Below the pieces are notes generated by a model. The model did no database searches, was not told the DNA's origin, and saw only the letters and a program-made list of their open reading frames with translations. A stretch of 64,000 nucleotides of DNA from Thelonectria olida (Eukaryota > Ascomycota > Sordariomycetes > Hypocreales > Nectriaceae). Numbering within the stretch: the stretch's first letter is position 1; each line of letters starts with the position of its first letter. The stretch covers positions 1-64,000 of the forward strand of contig JAGPYM010000030.1 in the NCBI GenBank assembly GCA_020736575.1, written 5' to 3'. The translations under genes and the position numbers were made by a program. Of this stretch, positions 36,155 to 48,332 are shown piece by piece.

Positions 36155-37019
36155 AGGCAGCAGAAGGCGGTGCCTGTGCTATTCAAAAGACCTATTGAAA
36201 GAACTTCAGTCAGACCAGAGCCCGGAGTCCTAAATGCGCAAAACAACGAGGATAATCCACTCTCCAGCGCCAGTTGGATGGAAGCCCCCCCGGCTCAATA
36301 CAGTTGTGAGTCGGGTAAATAGGCGCCCACAGTTTGGTCTAGAATGCCTCGTGAACTTGAGGTAGGCACTTCATTCGGTGCTGCAACATTTCTACGCCGT
36401 GACGTTTCTTGAAAAATGGGCATGTGAAACAATTCATCCGTCTGACTTACTACAGAGAACATGTGTTCGGCTCGTCCGTCATCTTGCAGCTGCCGTTGCA
36501 CTTGTGTGAGATATTTCCCACACTTGTGAGAGCAATATATCGGATGGAATTTGAACGGGGCTGCAGTGGGCCTAATCTAACTGATTTGAAGGCAGCCAGC
36601 CCAAGCACACAGCTGTGCCTTGACGGAATAGGTTAGACGGCCGAGTGATCCTGGCGAACCACGTTTCGCAGGGCCATGAGAACACACAACTGTGTAGTAC
36701 CGATAATAGCTGGCATCCATCGTGCATTCTACGACACATTTGTGTGGTAGGGCGCCTGCTGCGCAAAGGAACCCGGGAAGCTTGCCGTCGCTAATCTACT
36801 ACGTAGTATGTACGTCGCCCGATGGTCTCCATGAGTGTGGGCAAACGAACATGCCATAGCAGTTCGCTGATGACCGTTCAGCGCAAGATAAAATGGTCCC
36901 CTCCCCAGCGCATTTGCCACCATCTATCTCTTGCCTCAGCCCATTTTCATCTAAGAGACTACCCTTTCGTTCGACCTTTGCCTTGTATCTCATTGACTGC
37001 ATCGGTTGCTCAGACAACC
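36155..37019. other. Intergenic region
   Basis: No supported gene. The start of the zinc-finger frame at 36822 has weak coding character, and the conserved protein begins later. Confidence 0.4.
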
Positions 37020-38252
37020 ATGGCTCGCTACATAATCCTGTCTTGTCGCGGGAAACGATGCCCTCACAGGTCGACACAACCAAGCCAAAACAGGTCGTCG
37101 ACCATACGCGTCTACCAGCTGTCGTATACGCCTCTCGACAACGAAATATCCCGCGTGCATACAGACCTCGCGTCAGTCGGCACTAAACGGCGCAGACCTG
37201 ACCAATCCCAAGGGTCTGTTCGTCGCCACGCTTGCCACATTTGCCGCACGCAAGGAAGCCCTCCTTACGTCACACTAGTTTCTTCCGACAGCGAGTGCGG
37301 TGAGAGTGACTCTGGCAATGATCTGGACAGTGACGATTCTTGGGAGACCGAGGACTCGTGGGAGACCGACGATCCTTGGGGGAGCGAAAGCCCCGAGGAG
37401 AACGAGGATCAAGAGTCTCGTCTTCTTGCAGAGCTCGCAATCAATGGTAATTGCGAGCCTCAGAGCCTGAGAGAAGGCTCGCTGCAGTTTTCCTACCCAA
37501 AGCTCAAAGCCTCGATGGACGCCGCACAATATGGCCCTCCCCCAAACCACCGCCAATTGTCGCTTCGCAAACGCTCCCGAACTTCGAATTGGGCATCACA
37601 CTCGCCATGCCACGAGGACGAAGCCTATCAAAGCGACTCCGAATCCGCCGACGTATCGAGCGAATCGGGGTGCTACCATTTCGGATGCCCATTCTACTTT
37701 TCCGATCCTGAAAAATATCACAAATGCCTGATGAATCATGACTTGCGGTCTGCTCGGGACACAAGAAGGCACGTCCAACTGTATCATATGAAGCCACTGT
37801 ACTGCCCCATGTGCTACGAAACTTTCACCATGGTACGGGATCGGGATATGCACATCTCAAAGAGGTCATGCAACATGTGCGACGAGAGGGAAGTCGACGG
37901 AATCAACGAGTACCAGAGAGCGAGGCTATCGAAGCGGGACATGCCATGCCTCAGCGAGACGGCTCGTTGGAAGCGCATTTGGGATACCATTTTCCCCAAT
38001 CGTGAAGCTCCCCGTTCTCCATATTTGACGGACAACTGTGGGCTGGCAGTGTCCAAGGCTCGGGACTATTGGAGACAGTATGGTGCCAGTTGTGTTTCAC
38101 AGTACTTGGGGAGTCTAGGTCTTCTTGGTCGTCGTCGGGAGGGCGACGGGAAAGCGGAAGTCGCCTTGGTCAAGTTGACCCTGAAGGATTTGTTGAGCCA
38201 AATAGCGGCGGAGCATCGGCCGGTCAAGGATAGTAATAGTCACACAGAATAG
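37020..38252 (+). CDS. CPFY-type C2H2-like zinc-finger protein, paralogue A
   Basis: A protein of 410 residues (start ATG 37020, good context CAACCATGG). It has an acidic, Trp-containing tandem stretch (DDSWETEDSWETDDPWGSE, near 100-120), then the family core GCPFYFSDPEKYHKC, RDTRRHVQLYHMKPLYCPMC, and a third Cys pair after HISKRSC. It ends with W-x2-IW-x3-FP and PYL boxes. This core is shared with the two neighbours at 38.7-43.8 kb and 46.3 kb. It is seen in many filamentous fungi as a lineage-expanded family of unknown function; DNA binding is inferred. The 3' end may be wrong: another frame at 38402-38491 encodes a coiled-coil tail (KFQVVNELQGELERMDAKI...), preceded by a TACACAG acceptor, which could be a last exon. 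Confidence 0.75.
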   Translation: MARYIILSCRGKRCPHRSTQPSQNRSSTIRVYQLSYTPLDNEISRVHTDLASVGTKRRRPDQSQGSVRRHACHICRTQGSPPYVTLVSSDSECGESDSGNDLDSDDSWETEDSWETDDPWGSESPEENEDQESRLLAELAINGNCEPQSLREGSLQFSYPKLKASMDAAQYGPPPNHRQLSLRKRSRTSNWASHSPCHEDEAYQSDSESADVSSESGCYHFGCPFYFSDPEKYHKCLMNHDLRSARDTRRHVQLYHMKPLYCPMCYETFTMVRDRDMHISKRSCNMCDEREVDGINEYQRARLSKRDMPCLSETARWKRIWDTIFPNREAPRSPYLTDNCGLAVSKARDYWRQYGASCVSQYLGSLGLLGRRREGDGKAEVALVKLTLKDLLSQIAAEHRPVKDSNSHTE

Positions 38253-38701: not shown

Positions 38702-39820
38702 TCAATTGTACGTACTTCCGCTTGGATTCTGTCCCTGGCTATTAGGCTGCACGGAGTAGGGCGGCGGCCAGCTCTGTGACTCGTGGGTGGGCATCTGCAA
38801 GTTGTGACCTTGAGGGAATTCGAAACCTCGGGTGTCGTCGAAGGGCATCTGTAGCTGTCCACTATTGGCTTGCAGGAGGTTGTTTTCTTCGCTACCGAAC
38901 ACCTGGGTCTCGAGAGTGGTTAGGTTGGCTTGAGAAGAACCGGAGAACTGGTTCGATGGCCCAGGGTCTTGCGTCGGCCATCCTGGTGAATCAGTTGGGA
39001 TGCCATCGAATTGGCTGTCGGGCAGAGGAACAAGCACCTGACCCTGCATACCGGCATTGCTGAAGAAGTAGTTTGCCACATCAGTCGGGATGCAGCCGAA
39101 TTGGTCGTCGGGATGAGGAACAGGCAGCTGGCTTGACGAACCGACACTCGCAGGCTGACCCTGCATACTGGCATTGGCGAAAGAGCAGTTCGCCATAGCA
39201 GTCGGGGGCAAGGAAGACTCAGAACCCAGGTTTTGACTAGAGGCCAAAAGCATATCGTTATGCATCTGCCGTCCGCTGAAACGGCTCAATTGCGTCGACG
39301 GGAATGCGGCAGTGGCAGCGGCCGAGGAAGAAGGGTCTCTATGCCTGTTGTCCCTAAGCCTATGGGCTTCAATCGGGGTTTCGAAGTCCGTAGCGTCTTC
39401 CAGTCCGGTTTCCCCTGGGGGTTGATAGAGTTGTCCGGCATGCCCCTCGATGCCGCCGTCCGCAAGGGTCACTCCAGGGGCTGAGGTTGGAGCAGCTCTT
39501 CCGCCAAAACCTCGGACGAGATCGACGACCCTGCGTCTGTTCTCCTCATCCAAGAAGTTCAAGCCAGGCTCAATACAGCTGGCGATATGGTTGGCAGCCT
39601 CCACAAAAGCGTCGCCGAGGTATGGTGACGGATCGTCAGTGGCATAGAGCTTACGCCATGTCCAACGCCACTTCTCAGTGTCGTCAAGTTTGCGACTGGT
39701 CATTTTCTTCTTATCATCTTTATCGTCCTTTGAGAATGTGCATGTCTGAAATGCGTCCCAGGATAGCTTCTCTGGTCCGGCTTCCTCGACTGCTGCGGCT
39801 GGCCTGCAGCCTTGACGGAT

Positions 39821-39828
39821 GTGATCGT
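39821..39828. repeat. Left copy of 8-bp target-site duplication (GTGATCGT)
   Basis: Identical to 42891-42898 on the other side of the element. Eight bp is the standard hAT duplication length. Confidence 0.9.
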
Positions 39829-39840
39829 CATACCTGGGCG

Positions 39841-39945
39841 TTTGAGTTAACTCATGAGTTTCGACCCTTTTAACTCACTCATATGAGTTACGGCCTAGCC
39901 ATAACTCACTCATGAGTTTAACTCAGACTCATGAGTCAACTCACC
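39841..39945. repeat. Left subterminal ACTCATGAGT cluster of the hAT element
   Basis: Repeated palindromic or near-palindromic CTCATGAGTT and CTCATATGAGTT motifs. Similar copies recur at 42770-42875 near the other end. Their density and position indicate transposase-binding repeats rather than gene promoter elements. Confidence 0.7.
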
Positions 39946-40031
39946 TATAATGATCATGTGACATCGCCAGCTTCCCAAATAGGAAGTTGGTGATAAGAAT
40001 CTATGGTATTGAAGTGCAGAAAATCGCCGCG

Positions 40032-42304
40032 CTATTCAATATCACTAATTTCTATATCAATATCATCATTAGCAATGTCCGGATCACATACTAGCCCCAG
40101 CCCACCGTGCCGAGTCCCGACAATATGCCCATTCCGCATCCAGTTGCCGAGACACTCAACTTCCTGCAGCCGCTCGCACGTCATCGACAGCCGGTCCCAT
40201 GATGCGGTCCTACGAGCGCCTGAGAAGGTCCTTTCTGGCTCTGCCGACTGAGGGCTTATCGAGAGTATATCGATGGCCATACGGCTAAGGCGTGGAAACT
40301 GCCGTCGTTGTTCAATGCGACACCACCACTCCAGAGGTTTGCAATCGATCTTGACAGCCGGAGAATTAATAAATGCGTCTAGGTTATCGCCATCGGTTGA
40401 AAGAGCCGTCTCGACCTCCATCTCCTGTAGCAATAGCTGTAGCTGCGAAGGCGGCTTCCCCGGCGCAGCTGGCATATCCTCCGGAGTAGTTTCTATGTCT
40501 CCATCGATATTGGTATTGTATTCCTCCTCCCATATTTGCCGGGCTCCCACAATCGCTGGATTAATCCACGCACTCTTCCAGTTCTTATCCAAGTATGCTT
40601 TTCGACAGCGTGGATCGAGAAGAAGAGCGGCGACGTAAACGGGAGCCTCATCAGACATAGAGTAGTATTTATCGAGTACAAACCATCCCATCTCGATAGA
40701 ATGGAGCATACGGCTATCATGGAACTCCGGGGTCGAGTAGTGTATCTAACAAATTAGTTAAAGGCTGTCTCTTTAACGGAGATAGACCTTACCTTCGCTT
40801 TCTCAAAGTGGCTGAGAAGACCATCCATCAGCCGCAGCGTACTGCAGAGGCTCGCTTTATCGCCTTCTGTTATCAAAGTTGCCTCGGTAAAGGGCTGGAG
40901 GAAAGTATGCGTTTTCGACAGTATATCCCAGTCGGCGCCTGATAGAAGATGAGCACAGCCGATGTCCTTGTCATGGTCTACCATAAACTGGACGATCTGT
41001 GCCTTCTTATCGAGGGCGACACTGATAACTTTATACCATGAGGACCACCGTGTTGCGTTATCGATCCCGAGACTGCGACCCACAGCTTCGCGCCAGTTAT
41101 CACTATGGATTGGAGAGCTTCCAATCCAGACTGCGAGATGGTGGAGCTTCTGGAGAGCATTAATGCCTTCCCATCCGCTAAATTCTAATTGCTGAGTAGT
41201 CCTCTCTCTCGTCGGAGGTCTCTGCTGTCTCCCCTGGTTCTCCTCTGATGTGTGATCCACCGTGGTATCGGGTCCTGAAAGCGTATTCTCATTCAGAGCA
41301 GTAGAGAAGGTTTCGATAGACTGCGCACCAGCGGCGTTGCCGGCGGCATTAAGGGCAGCGCGTAAAGCTTCTTTCGAGCGCGCGAGAAGGAAAGCTTGAA
41401 GGGAAAGGTTAATAATATGGCCGAAACAGCGGACACGGCGGCGGACAGGATCGAAGATTATCTAGACGAAACTCAGCTGGCACAGCCATAGAAATTTATC
41501 TTTACTTACTCCTCGCCCGTGAAGTAGCTTCTTTGATAAAGCTTCTAGGCAGGTATTGTTCGAGGATGCGTTATCCCCAGTATGATAACCCACGCGTCGA
41601 ATTTCGAATCGCCCCAAGACATCAGCGATCAGGCCGGCCTGGGACTCGCCAGAGTGGTCTTTTCGACACTCTAGCAGACCTAGAAGCGCCTTTCGAAGTT
41701 TATAGCCCTTATCGACCCACTGTCCGCATACTGCAAGCATACCATGTCGGTGTGGTGATGTCCAGAGATCAGATGAGAGGTGAATCATCGAAATGGCAGA
41801 TTGAAGGGACTCGGCCAACTGAGCAGCGTAGAACTCATAGCTAGCTGAGATGTAGCGCATCACTGTACGTCGGGAGGTAATCAGACTATCCTCGATGGCA
41901 GGATTACATGCTAGTGCTAGGTCCTTTATCTCATCCCACTCAACCATCGAAAAGGCCACTCTGCGACGTGTGAGAAGGCTGATAAGAGCTTCGATGTAAG
42001 CCTGTCGATTGAAGGCATTCCGTAATGCCGCTTCGGATGGCGTAGTCGATGATGTGATATATACGTCGAGCGATTGCTGAGATTGATTCTGCCGGCTAGA
42101 GAGCCCGATCAGATATGGATGATTATTCCTTATGTGGCGCCGCGCATTGCCCTTATAGCCATCCTTCCATGGCTTCGCCGTACAGTATAAGCAGACATAT
42201 AAAGTGCGAGGCTTCGCCTTCTCTCTGGTGAAAAATCTCTCAATATCGATGAAGTCGGGGGCGGAAGAGGGTGTCCTCGGTACAGACGAAGTTTCGGATG
42301 CCAT
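40032..42304 (-). CDS. hAT-family transposase
   Basis: A 725-residue transposase; minus-strand exons 42304-41510, 41461-40793 and 40745-40032. The introns (41462-41509 and 40746-40792) use GTAAGT...TCTAG and GTAAGG...TTAG. An N-terminal BED-like zinc finger is at about residues 30-65: C-x2-C in YVCLYCTAKPWKDG, with H-x4-H in RRHIRNNHP. The catalytic core has LSSDLWTSP (first Asp) and HTGDNASSNNT (second Asp). RCFGHIINLSLQA follows after the first intron. The C-terminal hATC dimerisation region reads LSRMAIDILSISPQSAEPERTFSGARR. There are no internal stops or frameshifts. It excises and reinserts hAT DNA by cut-and-paste in the nucleus. Confidence 0.92.
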
Positions 42305-42769
42305 GGCGATGGCTTGATGGTATAGATAATGGATCGAGGCGATGAAGAGTCTGCCGATAAATCGTACTAGAAACTGCAGTAGCTACTCGGAAGACTTTTT
42401 TTACCTTAAGATTCTTGTCAATTTCTGATGGATCTGGATCATAGGGATAGAAGCTCTTGATTCTCTATCTAATGAGTGGAAACAGGTCGGTTTCTTATAC
42501 ATAAGATGAATTGGTCCTCCGGGGCCGTTGTGTTTAAGAACTTGCTTTTTGGGAGACATAGGTGATACCAACCACTGACGGGAAGTCCGGACTTCCGGGC
42601 TGCCGGTCTGAACTGCCTGTCTGAACTGCTGGAAGACCTTCCTTCCGGTTTGATCAAATGTATGACCCTTTGGTCTGTTGGATGTGATAATTCTGAATAT
42701 AGAGGGGTTGCGATAGATTAGATTAGATTATAGAGCGGGCTAATCAGACGCCAGGAACGCCGTTGTGAG

Positions 42770-42890
42770 TTTATGAGTTAACTCATGAGTTAGCAGCGAT
42801 AACTCAGACTCAACTCATATGAGTTTTATGAGTTAGAGTTATGAGTTAACTCATGAGTTAGGTTTGAGTTAACTAAAATGCCCAGGTATG
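42770..42890. repeat. Right terminal and subterminal repeats of the hAT element
   Basis: Holds the right TIR (42865-42890) preceded by copies of ATGAGTTAACTCATGAGTTA, matching the left end in inverted orientation. The most extended palindrome is GAGTTAACTCATGAGTTA at about 42772-42789. Confidence 0.75.
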
Positions 42891-42898
42891 GTGATCGT
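42891..42898. repeat. Right copy of 8-bp target-site duplication (GTGATCGT)
   Basis: Exact match to 39821-39828; defines the insertion boundary together with the right TIR. Confidence 0.9.
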
Positions 42899-43853
42899 CG
42901 AACAATGACTGCGCATCATCATCTTTCTTCTTTTCAACCCACTCTTCATGGCAGTTCTCGCATCGGAACCTCGAATGCGTATGAATTCGTTTCATGTGCT
43001 GTACAACGTATGAATATGAGCTCAGTTGGTAATTGAGGCAATGTTGATGGGCGAGAGGGTATCGCCTATAGAGAGGACAGGCAAACAATCGCTCGTAGAC
43101 CTTTTTGTGTTTGCCAGGCCTGATGGTCTTGTCGTTAATCGGTGGCCTGCCACTTACGTCGTCTTCATCGTCGCCATTTGGGCCGAACGGATCCTTTTCG
43201 TTGCGCTCTTGTCTTTGTTTCTTGGCCTTGGTTCCCTCGTCCTCGCCTCCGCCCTTTGTGGCAGGTCGTTTTTGGTTGTGTGGGGACGTAGTGGACGTCC
43301 CGTAACTCTGAAAGAGAGGATTCGGTGAGGGACCATATTGCTGTCGGGCTACATCTCCCCAAGGCGTCGCATTAGTACCGCCATGACCCAGATATGGGTT
43401 AGGCACGGTCCATGTGTCGTCGCGATGTCTTTTCTCCTTGTTCGTTGCTATCTTCGGAACATGTAAGAGATCTCCTGAATAGTAGAAGACGTTAGTAAAA
43501 CGTGCAGCAGTCGAGTTTGTAAGTCATCTATATCTCAAGTACACCTCACCATTATTTTGAGCTTCGCGCAGATCTCCCAGTGTGAATGAGACTTGAGGAC
43601 AGAGGCCGTCGGAAATAACGGGTGTGTTCGTGAGCTCCTGTTTCTCGAAGGAAGTTCCCACTGAAGAAGCGCCTGGGTTCCCAGGCAAGCTCTGGAAAAG
43701 GTTGGTCCGCTTTGGATCGGACGAAACATATTGAGTCGAGTTACGATCTTCGGTCGCTCTTTGGATGATTGGTTGGTATTGAGCACTTGAAGACTGAGCC
43801 GTCCCCGAAGGAGAGTCATGGGGCAAACTCGCAGTCATGGCTGGAGAGGTCAA

Positions 43854-45733: not shown

Positions 45734-46270
45734 GCTGAGACGAAGACTGGAGGAAGGGTGAAAGAAGGAGCTTCTGGAGGAGTGCACAGTGATTCGAAGA
45801 AGGCACTGTTTGAGACATCCCCGCCTGCTATTATTCTTATAGAGATGCAATCTAGTATATGTCGTTATCCCGGTGCTTTTCGCCATGATGCACGGATAGA
45901 TCTTGATGACCAGGGTGTGTCTCTTAGTTTTCTTCCGTTGAATCCATCCCTTTTCCGATTGCGCCCCTTGCTTGGGCTTATTACCCCGATCGGCCGAATT
46001 AGATGTGCACCCATGGATGCGTCTCGTGGCACCACGCAGAGTGGGCAGTGCTTTTATATACGGACACCCGCTACAACGCACGCTAGGGCCGCATCGAGAA
46101 TCAATCTAAGTATTTATGTGTGCGAAGCCCAAGTCACTAGTAGCCTCAGGACGTGTGTCTCCCTGCCTGAGTTCAACTAGATTTCCGAAAAATACTCGTA
46201 CTTCATTCATTGCTCCCTCACAATTGTTCGTTGCATCTCCTCTTGCCGCACCCTTGTTAATCCACTACGA
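45734..46270. other. Intergenic region
   Basis: No supported gene. The upstream exon of paralogue C may start here; see that entry. Confidence 0.35.
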
Positions 46271-46357
46271 GTGTTCTCACCCAATTCACCTATTTCAGGT
46301 CTGTACGGACTTGGCATACTGGCGAGACCACGTTCACTGACAATCCTGCATAGACAG

Positions 46358-47509
46358 ATGAAGCTTCGAGCATCACCCAGTCTGACCGCCTCAAGGCCTC
46401 CCCACCCAAAGTCTCGGACTTTTGGGAGGAGGTTTTCGACAACCTCGTCCCGCCACAATAGAAAGGCCGATACTAAAGTCGCCTCACCGAAACACCCAGC
46501 CGGTGATGCGGTGAAAAAGGGGCGTCGAAAACGTCTCCGTGACACTAATCGTGCCGAGGACATCTCACACGACGAGGACCCCTATTTTCAAAAACCGCAG
46601 AAGCAAAACTTTGCTTGCCCATTCTACAAGCTGGATCCCTTTTATTACCAGGACTGCATCCATCTCAAGTTGCAGCGCATCTCAGACGTGAAGCAGCATC
46701 TCAAGCGACGGCATAGCCTACCACAACACCAATGCCCAAGCTGCTTGCAGGCTTTCTCCTCCAAGAGACTGATCTCATACCATGTCCAAGACGATGGCTG
46801 CGAGCGACCCGGCTTCCCGTTGCACAAACGTGGAGTTTCGCCCGAGAAACAAGAAGTGTTAGCGCACCGGGTTCCCCGGAGCCTGGAACCCGTTGATCAG
46901 TGGATGAAGATTTGGAGCATTCTGTTCGACGACAAGCCTTGTCCGGAGGATCCTCATCTTGGGACCGTTGTGGAAGAGGTGTTTGGCATGCTTCGTCACT
47001 TTTGGAAGCGTGAGGGCTCTCCCACTGCCTCCACCTTCGTCAAGGATGAAAAGGATGTTCCAGAACTCCTCAAGCGAATCCTGGACGAGGCCCAAGACCA
47101 CTTCAAGCAAAGAAGTGATGGGCCGGAATTCATGGAGGCATTCAACGAGAGGAGCGGCAGCAATTCCCGCATGATTGCCAACGCCTCCGGACTAGTCAAC
47201 GAACCTCCTCCCGATTCTGTATCGGTCAAGGACGAAAGTCAATCTTATCGATCTATTGACTCAGTGCAAGCATTTCCCTCTTTGCCGGGTCCTTGCATCG
47301 AGACAGGATTCTCATATGGGGAGTCGATACCACCCACAAGCTCGCCTTATATGCCCGATGATTCCATGTTCGCCACGCCAGTTCTATCAGGCGGACTTTT
47401 TGATCAGTTCATGAACGACGCCTCTTTTCCTGGAGCCATTCTCGGTGACGCGTCGGATGGCTTGGATGGGTCATTTTCACTCTCTTATGGGATATTTTAT
47501 GATCCGTGA
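46358..47509 (+). CDS. CPFY-type zinc-finger protein, paralogue C
   Basis: A protein of about 412 residues if read from 46271 and about 383 from the ATG at 46358. The core is FACPFYKLDPFYYQDCIHL, then VKQHLKRRHSLPQHQCPSC, and AFSSKRLISYHVQDDGC, then W-x2-IWSILF and a PHL box, all aligned with paralogues A and B. The C-terminus is Ser/Asp-rich. Its N-terminal 35-40 residues look like frame noise, whereas the +1 frame there encodes TDEASSITQSDRLKASPPK and SDFWEEVFDNLVPP, ending at a TAG near 46462. Either a 5' exon joins through an unrecognised intron, or an indel shifted the frame near 46460. Confidence 0.7.
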   Translation: MKLRASPSLTASRPPHPKSRTFGRRFSTTSSRHNRKADTKVASPKHPAGDAVKKGRRKRLRDTNRAEDISHDEDPYFQKPQKQNFACPFYKLDPFYYQDCIHLKLQRISDVKQHLKRRHSLPQHQCPSCLQAFSSKRLISYHVQDDGCERPGFPLHKRGVSPEKQEVLAHRVPRSLEPVDQWMKIWSILFDDKPCPEDPHLGTVVEEVFGMLRHFWKREGSPTASTFVKDEKDVPELLKRILDEAQDHFKQRSDGPEFMEAFNERSGSNSRMIANASGLVNEPPPDSVSVKDESQSYRSIDSVQAFPSLPGPCIETGFSYGESIPPTSSPYMPDDSMFATPVLSGGLFDQFMNDASFPGAILGDASDGLDGSFSLSYGIFYDP

Positions 47510-48332
47510 TTGTCTCAAACCCTATTATCCCTCATAGCCTCATGTTCTTCGGTTTTTTTCTGAACTGGAGTTTTCAAGAATTACCACCTTTTAAGAGATT
47601 TGAAATAGCTACTCTTCCAAATTGTTGTAAGCGACAAGGCTGGAAAAGCTTGATTTTTGGTCACTATGGAAGCATTGGGTTTCAAAATGCTACATTGTAG
47701 AAAGAAATTGTGGTGTTGTGCCCTTTTGAGTGTAGCATCTCGTCCTTGATGGAGTCAACAGCTTATACGGCAGTTGTAAGTGACATTGACCTGGCTCAGG
47801 TTGATGTATTCACTTAGTGCTTGATAACGGCCCAAGGAAGGATGTGCTCTCATCCAAAATGATTACCAATCGGGCAGTTGTGACTGCAAGTGTCTGTCGA
47901 AGCCGTGTGAAATTCTAAGCCCCAAGCGGAACATGGAATGTCGAGTAGAAGGTAAACCCAATAGAATGCACTCATTGACTTTTCTAAATACCTACCTACT
48001 CACTAACCCCAGCTTCTTGAGGATTAGAATGATGGTTAGATTACTGGCAGCCTGACAACTAGTTGTCATCTTCTACAGCTACCTCTCCGCCGGACAGGGC
48101 AATATCACTAGCATCCGCACACCAACCGGTGACGAGGCTATCCTACATCAAACAAGGCGGGGCGACGAAATAGAACATTCCTCTACTGATCAGGAACAAG
48201 AATTCCCCTTTCACCATCCCAACTAGTCTTATGTTGAATAACCCTATCACCGGTTCGCACGTGGATGCCGGTGCTATCACCCTCTCCAGCAGAGAGGTGG
48301 TTCGTCATTCTGGGCGTTGGTCTCTGAGTTGC
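47510..48332. other. Intergenic region
   Basis: No supported gene; AT-rich 3' flanks of two converging genes. Confidence 0.4.

Follow-up and report, generated by a model that had tools for sequence, protein, structure and literature searches.

The first 64,000 nucleotides of contig C90 (JAGPYM010000030.1) of the nectriaceous fungus Thelonectria olida, referred to here as the window and drawn from an assembly of 52.5 Mb in 165 contigs (GCA_020736575.1), contain a C2H2-type zinc-finger gene which, we conclude, was interrupted by a complete hAT transposon of the cut-and-paste type, which is probably autonomous and duplicated 8 bp of target as it inserted (we place the probability of this reading at about 0.93). 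The initial annotation of this DNA had proposed that a hAT insertion split a single gene, and the proposal is borne out by the target duplications, the inverted ends, a dimerisation domain in the transposase, and paralogues which carry both halves of the gene in one frame.

The inserted element

The transposon is a full-length element of 3,062 bp on the minus strand (39829–42890) and is one of 20 identical copies in the genome. It is flanked by two copies of the 8-bp target-site duplication GTGATCGT (39821–39828 and 42891–42898) which match each other perfectly, as had been reported earlier, and a duplication of this length, as expected of a hAT element, is found both here and at 17 of the 20 identical copies. 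The terminal inverted repeats lie at 39829–39854 (the far end, plus strand) and 42865–42890 (the transposase side, minus strand). These had been described simply as 26-bp repeats, and although the inverted ends are present their match is imperfect, with the 11 outermost base pairs (CATACCTGGGC) identical and two mismatches thereafter, giving agreement at 24 of 26 positions (chance probability ~7e-13). The terminal inverted repeats of hAT elements are short and begin with CA, and CATACCTGGGC does so at both ends of this element. Just inside the ends, the motif TGAGTT/AACTCA forms dense arrays, with 9 hits in 130 bp at 39829–39958 (69 per kb) and 12 hits in 130 bp at 42761–42890 (92 per kb), whereas the remainder of the window, with the element excluded, has 0.41 per kb; such subterminal arrays serve as transposase binding sites in hAT elements that have been studied in more detail.

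The predicted transposase is a protein of 725 amino acids encoded on the minus strand by three exons without an internal stop. Exon 1 (41510–42304, with the ATG at 42304), exon 2 (40793–41461) and exon 3 (40032–40745, stop included) are separated by introns of 48 and 47 bp. Exon 3 carries the hAT C-terminal dimerisation region PF05699 (E 3.4e-13, 49.6 bits against a cut-off of 21.4), and exon 1 has a weak match to the N-terminal BED-type zinc finger PF18658 which falls under the cut-off (18.8 bits against 27.3). Among solved structures the protein matches only four distinct Hermes sequences (whole-sequence E 4.1e-5, best around residues 620–668); no single-stretch match to Hermes passed the threshold (the best being 0.0011) and the remaining transposase has no significant alignment to it. 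As to the DDE catalytic residues, the ERTFS region aligns with Hermes and the DLWT region does so only within a non-significant stretch. A search of viral contigs for DNA relatives of the transposase returned none. Judged by its intact frame and its ends, the element is probably a complete, autonomous cut-and-paste hAT transposon.

The interrupted zinc-finger gene

The host gene lies on the minus strand, with exon 1 (43550–43838) starting at ATG 43838, or upstream at an in-frame TTG at 43853, and followed by a 75-bp intron (43549–43475). Exon 2 up to the insert (42891–43474) encodes the first finger and most of the second and includes one copy of the duplication, and on the far side of the element the 3' half (38702–39820) provides the last Cys of the second finger, a conserved W-rich region and the tail, 372 residues and a stop in all. 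When the flanks were joined by script, with one duplication copy kept and the intron spliced, an open frame of 663 amino acids was obtained from ATG 43838, and the same frame started at TTG 43853 has 668 codons, ending in both cases at 38702. The in-frame rejoining into a 668-codon open reading frame described in the initial annotation is therefore recovered from the TTG, but only once the intron is spliced, as the unspliced empty-site frame meets a stop at codon 104. The frame across the empty site is otherwise clean, in agreement with the earlier statement that the host gene has not yet decayed.

There are 291 native residues before the break and 372 after it. As the 5' half ends RCENCHEEW...FDDH and the 3' half begins IRQGC, the insert interrupts the second finger itself, separating its His from the last Cys, and does not follow the zinc-finger core, where it had been placed. 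In the present DNA the 5' frame continues from the 291 native residues into five residues of transposon origin (HTWAF) and then stops, and the piece as it stands lacks the fourth zinc ligand and the 372-residue remainder; we infer that the split gene is inactive or the source of a truncated protein only. No Pfam model reaches its cut-off with the host gene. It should be noted that the public entry B0T10DRAFT_464615 (P0003) comprises 291 residues of the host 3' half, with an annotated start that is not contiguous in the DNA, and treats part of the 3' half of the broken gene as an independent gene.

The gene belongs to a family with a FACP-type first finger, a second finger of the pattern CxxC...H...C and a W-rich region in one frame, all of which it shows once rejoined. 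A search of the genome with the 5' half (E 0.001) found itself and eight other places, and the eight related frames match the 5' half by BLASTP. A ninth, the neighbouring gene on the plus strand (36822–38252), has fingers and a W-rich region in one frame; at E 0.01 BLASTP finds no match between it and the 5' half, which it resembles by finger pattern in the alignment. For each of these nine frames, up to 138 residues from the finger onward were set against the opening 110 of the 3' half, with 500 shuffles as the control (uncorrected for nine tests). The neighbour and four of the eight (L022, L024, L026 and L028) outscored all 500 shuffles, L023 outscored 498, and the L026 match starts at the first residue past the break. 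Taken together, both halves occur in one frame in five of the nine related frames by BLASTP and shuffles, and in a sixth, the neighbour, by finger pattern. The break thus falls inside a unit of fingers and W-rich region which the paralogues keep in one frame and, as six of the nine frames carry both parts, the two halves are on this sequence evidence one gene.

Several results count against this conclusion. Searched against the genome (E 0.001), the 3' half finds only itself, and BLASTP of the whole 3' half against the paralogues gave no match, so that the linkage of the halves depends on the region directly after the finger; three of the nine frames were also unremarkable in the shuffle test, with 13, 464 and 260 of the 500 shuffles reaching their scores. 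These empty searches, together with the public annotation, which counts some of the 3' piece as a separate gene, are what might be expected of separate genes which flank a transposon by chance and across whose empty site the open frame is a coincidence. We regard this as very improbable, as the frame, the finger spacing and the last Cys run on exactly across one duplication copy, the start of the annotated gene is not contiguous in the DNA, and the resemblance of six of the nine frames to both halves is the opposite of what two different genes in the relatives would give, an outcome the initial annotation had singled out as telling against a split gene. Two unrelated genes flanking the insert were rejected on the same ground, that paralogues carry both halves. 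Outside T. olida, neither the 3' half nor the neighbouring gene found a relative at E 0.001 in a search that needs shared exact words.

We note that members of this finger family tend to lie near one another, with three in about 11 kb here (36822–38252, 42891–43838 and ~46180–47510), two within about 5 kb on contig C79, and two within about 4 kb on contig C16 (the pairs being L022 and L026, and L024 and L027).

Genome copies and relatives in Fusarium

The initial annotation had suggested a search for other copies and had argued for a recent insertion, and the genome provides stronger grounds for this than were claimed. In a whole-element search in which 40 of 65 candidates were scored, 20 copies including the present one are identical over all 3,062 bp, and three are diverged: L030 (98.4%, with its own perfect duplication), L031 (~98%, deleted) and the relic L032 (~78%). 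Scans with the 30-bp ends agree with this count, as the 22 exact transposase-side ends and 21 exact far ends are accounted for by the 20 copies plus L030 and L031; one more transposase-side end has two mismatches. This is a lone end of 89 bp at L038 (3487–3575, 95.5% identity, with the two mismatches in the terminal repeat), which is either a remnant or a short non-autonomous copy. Repeat-induced point mutation was considered for L030, the only copy examined for it, and rejected, since its 44 substitutions include 15 of the G-to-A or C-to-T type and 14 running the other way.

Zero changes in 61,240 bases bound the divergence at ~5e-5 per site. At substitution rates of 1e-8 to 1e-9 changes per site per year, the identity of 20 copies over 3,062 bp would place the amplification very recently, at about 5,000–50,000 years, if it was a star-like burst and if the assembler did not even out the copies. 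An amplification so recent would also account for the undecayed state of the host gene.

The perfect 8-bp duplications of the 17 copies are all different. A target preference for T at position 2 and A at position 7 was considered for these together with that of L030, and was rejected as weak (13 of 36 cases). Seven of these 18 duplication-bearing copies lie in frames of at least 300 codons, compared with 38% of random points (taken from this window alone), and so in this small sample there is no sign of selection sorting the insertions. Four identical copies (L007, L012, L014 and L019) were found in long open frames, 501–936 codons when summed over both flanks, and from this the burst probably broke further genes.

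Less easily accommodated are three of the 20 identical copies, L008, L011 and L015, which lack a duplication and are unexplained by simple insertion. A reciprocal rearrangement was tried as an explanation and set aside, as no matching partner ends were found among the three when their 8-mers were compared by hand. In two of them, L011 and L015, the element is bordered on both sides by long open frames that end there, a picture like that at points of rearrangement or misjoins. Unmatched flanks are what misjoins at identical repeats would give, but an assembly artefact at a 3-kb repeat is scarcely credible as the origin of the identical copies or of the present junction, since misassembly would not make 17 different and internally perfect duplications, and the flanks of the present copy are in frame with each other.

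We worked with 120 of the 163 relatives of the transposase found at E 0.001, and among the matches listed the closest named relatives are from the Fusarium oxysporum complex. Over aligned residues the T. olida protein is identical to the F. oxysporum records P0009, P0013, P0008 and P0010 at 95.2%, 94.6%, 93.9% and 93.9%, respectively, to P0016 (F. commune) at 91.2% and to P0012 at 90.6%, followed by Dactylonectria (P0014, 85.8%), another F. oxysporum family (P0006, 80.7%) and Cordyceps javanica (P0007, 73.1%). It should be noted that P0008, P0012, P0014 and P0016 include 89 to 219 gapped columns, and that identity counted otherwise is 66% for P0008 and 70% for P0014. In a tree of the T. olida transposase and 18 proteins picked from the 120, it forms one clade with six F. 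oxysporum complex records (support 100/99), within which the order is weakly supported.

The likeness extends to non-coding sequence, as the P0010 frame continues across intron 2 and ends at the same stop, with identity at 11 of 12 residues encoded by the intron (the 12 counted by hand). Relative to the young copies, the older copy L030 differs at 1.44% of bases and 2.8% of residues, and the older copy L031 at 1.61% of bases and 2.6% of residues. At four positions both side with F. oxysporum against the young copies (at one of these, the state of the young copies is also that of other relatives), and another five positions show at least three F. oxysporum records sharing a state found in no T. 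olida copy. These patterns fit two sister groups of elements, one in T. olida and one in F. oxysporum, with a young common ancestor.

As an ordinary-gene yardstick we used an endoglucanase (cellulase) exon of T. olida, in which 122 of 183 residues (66.7%) are identical to chain 1ovw, which we take to be a F. oxysporum protein, with orthology assumed; trypsin was tried for the same purpose, but the genome returned no match. One study places the divergence of Pseudonectria from Dactylonectria and Fusarium at ~132 million years (PMC6110257), and Thelonectria is undated in the parts of that paper available to us. Intron sequence would not stay legible through vertical descent on such a time scale, which makes transfer the better account, and we infer that the shared ancestor of the elements is far younger than that of their hosts through horizontal transfer, in either direction. 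We consider it likely that the last few million years saw the element move between the lineages of F. oxysporum and Thelonectria, and that a burst is now under way in T. olida.

The case for transfer is weakened by being made from protein records and a single yardstick gene whose orthology is assumed. Both hosts are Nectriaceae with many hAT lineages in common, and with the comparison made on protein records alone the F. oxysporum likeness might be ascribed to vertical descent under strong constraint, or to a contaminated genome record. Either seems to us unlikely: at least five records supply the F. oxysporum proteins, which are gapped or truncated like unconstrained remnants; P0010 keeps intron sequence; the cellulase exon, which is selected for function, is conserved at only two-thirds of its residues; and in T. 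olida the copies are spread over many contigs, each in flanking sequence of its own.

With transfer preferred, the history we propose is that the hAT element would have crossed between the F. oxysporum and Thelonectria lineages and then amplified in a burst in T. olida, in the course of which one copy would have entered the zinc-finger gene, duplicated 8 bp, and cut through the second finger between its His and final Cys, with too little time since for the clean frame of the host gene to decay. If this is true, the insertions are fresh and identical and cut genes as if at random, ahead of silencing or decay, and the split zinc-finger gene is one frame of a running transposon invasion. With 20 identical copies of known target sites, older decayed copies of the family and close relatives in another genus, the system would be suited to testing the horizontal transfer of DNA transposons between root-associated fungi, and would let insertions be followed at a stage that neither selection nor silencing has yet touched. 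The finding also corrects the public annotation, where a portion of the broken gene is listed as a gene in its own right.

A recurrent stretch and comparison with known systems

A non-coding part of the element upstream of the transposase (42419–42699, minus strand, element bases 192–472) recurs in at least 17 other places, over about 165–280 bp and at 82–91% identity. In L034 the stretch is 90% alike and the transposase exons only 68–77%. Its orientation relative to the transposase exons is opposite in L034 and L039–L041 and the same in L036, and in L033, L035, L042 and L043 it is found with no transposase in the sequence examined around it. An Rfam search over 42350–42750 found nothing up to E 1, and the stretch may be a SINE-like repeat (short interspersed element) or a shared promoter module. 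Elsewhere, L037 contains a diverged 5.8S rRNA-like match (1501–1631, 52.7 bits against a cut-off of 42) which is the sole one in the assembly and is isolated, with no normal rDNA unit around it in the sequence examined.

Among the literature matches listed we found no account of the T. olida element, which does not establish its absence from print, and the listed papers containing the 11-base end CATACCTGGGC are unrelated by title. In a study in which 41 Arabidopsis root fungi were sequenced with PacBio (PMC8664821), Thelonectria is not named in the main text.

Among solved structures, Hermes of the house fly is the only transposase matched, best around residues 620–668. Far closer are the unnamed hATs of the F. 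oxysporum complex (P0008, P0009, P0010, P0012 and P0013, with P0016 from F. commune), which have the same transposase (90.6–95.2% over aligned residues) and are known from proteins alone, in records that are gapped, truncated or read through an intron, in contrast to the 20 intact and identical copies of T. olida. The F. oxysporum element Hornet1 and its short derivative Hormin are, from the portions of the published account seen, also hATs with 8-bp duplications like the T. olida element; however, their ends are CAGGGTTCAAATCCA rather than CATACCTGGGC, which places the T. olida element outside the Hornet1/Hormin family as far as that account describes it. The insertion of a hAT into an exon is already well known, and it is the identical burst and the cross-genus relationship that are the parts worth following. 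Hormin, as described in the available part of its report (PMC3428301), is a 759-bp element without a transposase, flanked by an 8-bp duplication in an exon of a gene, from which a chimeric product results; the T. olida insertion is an event of this sort made by another element, one of full length.

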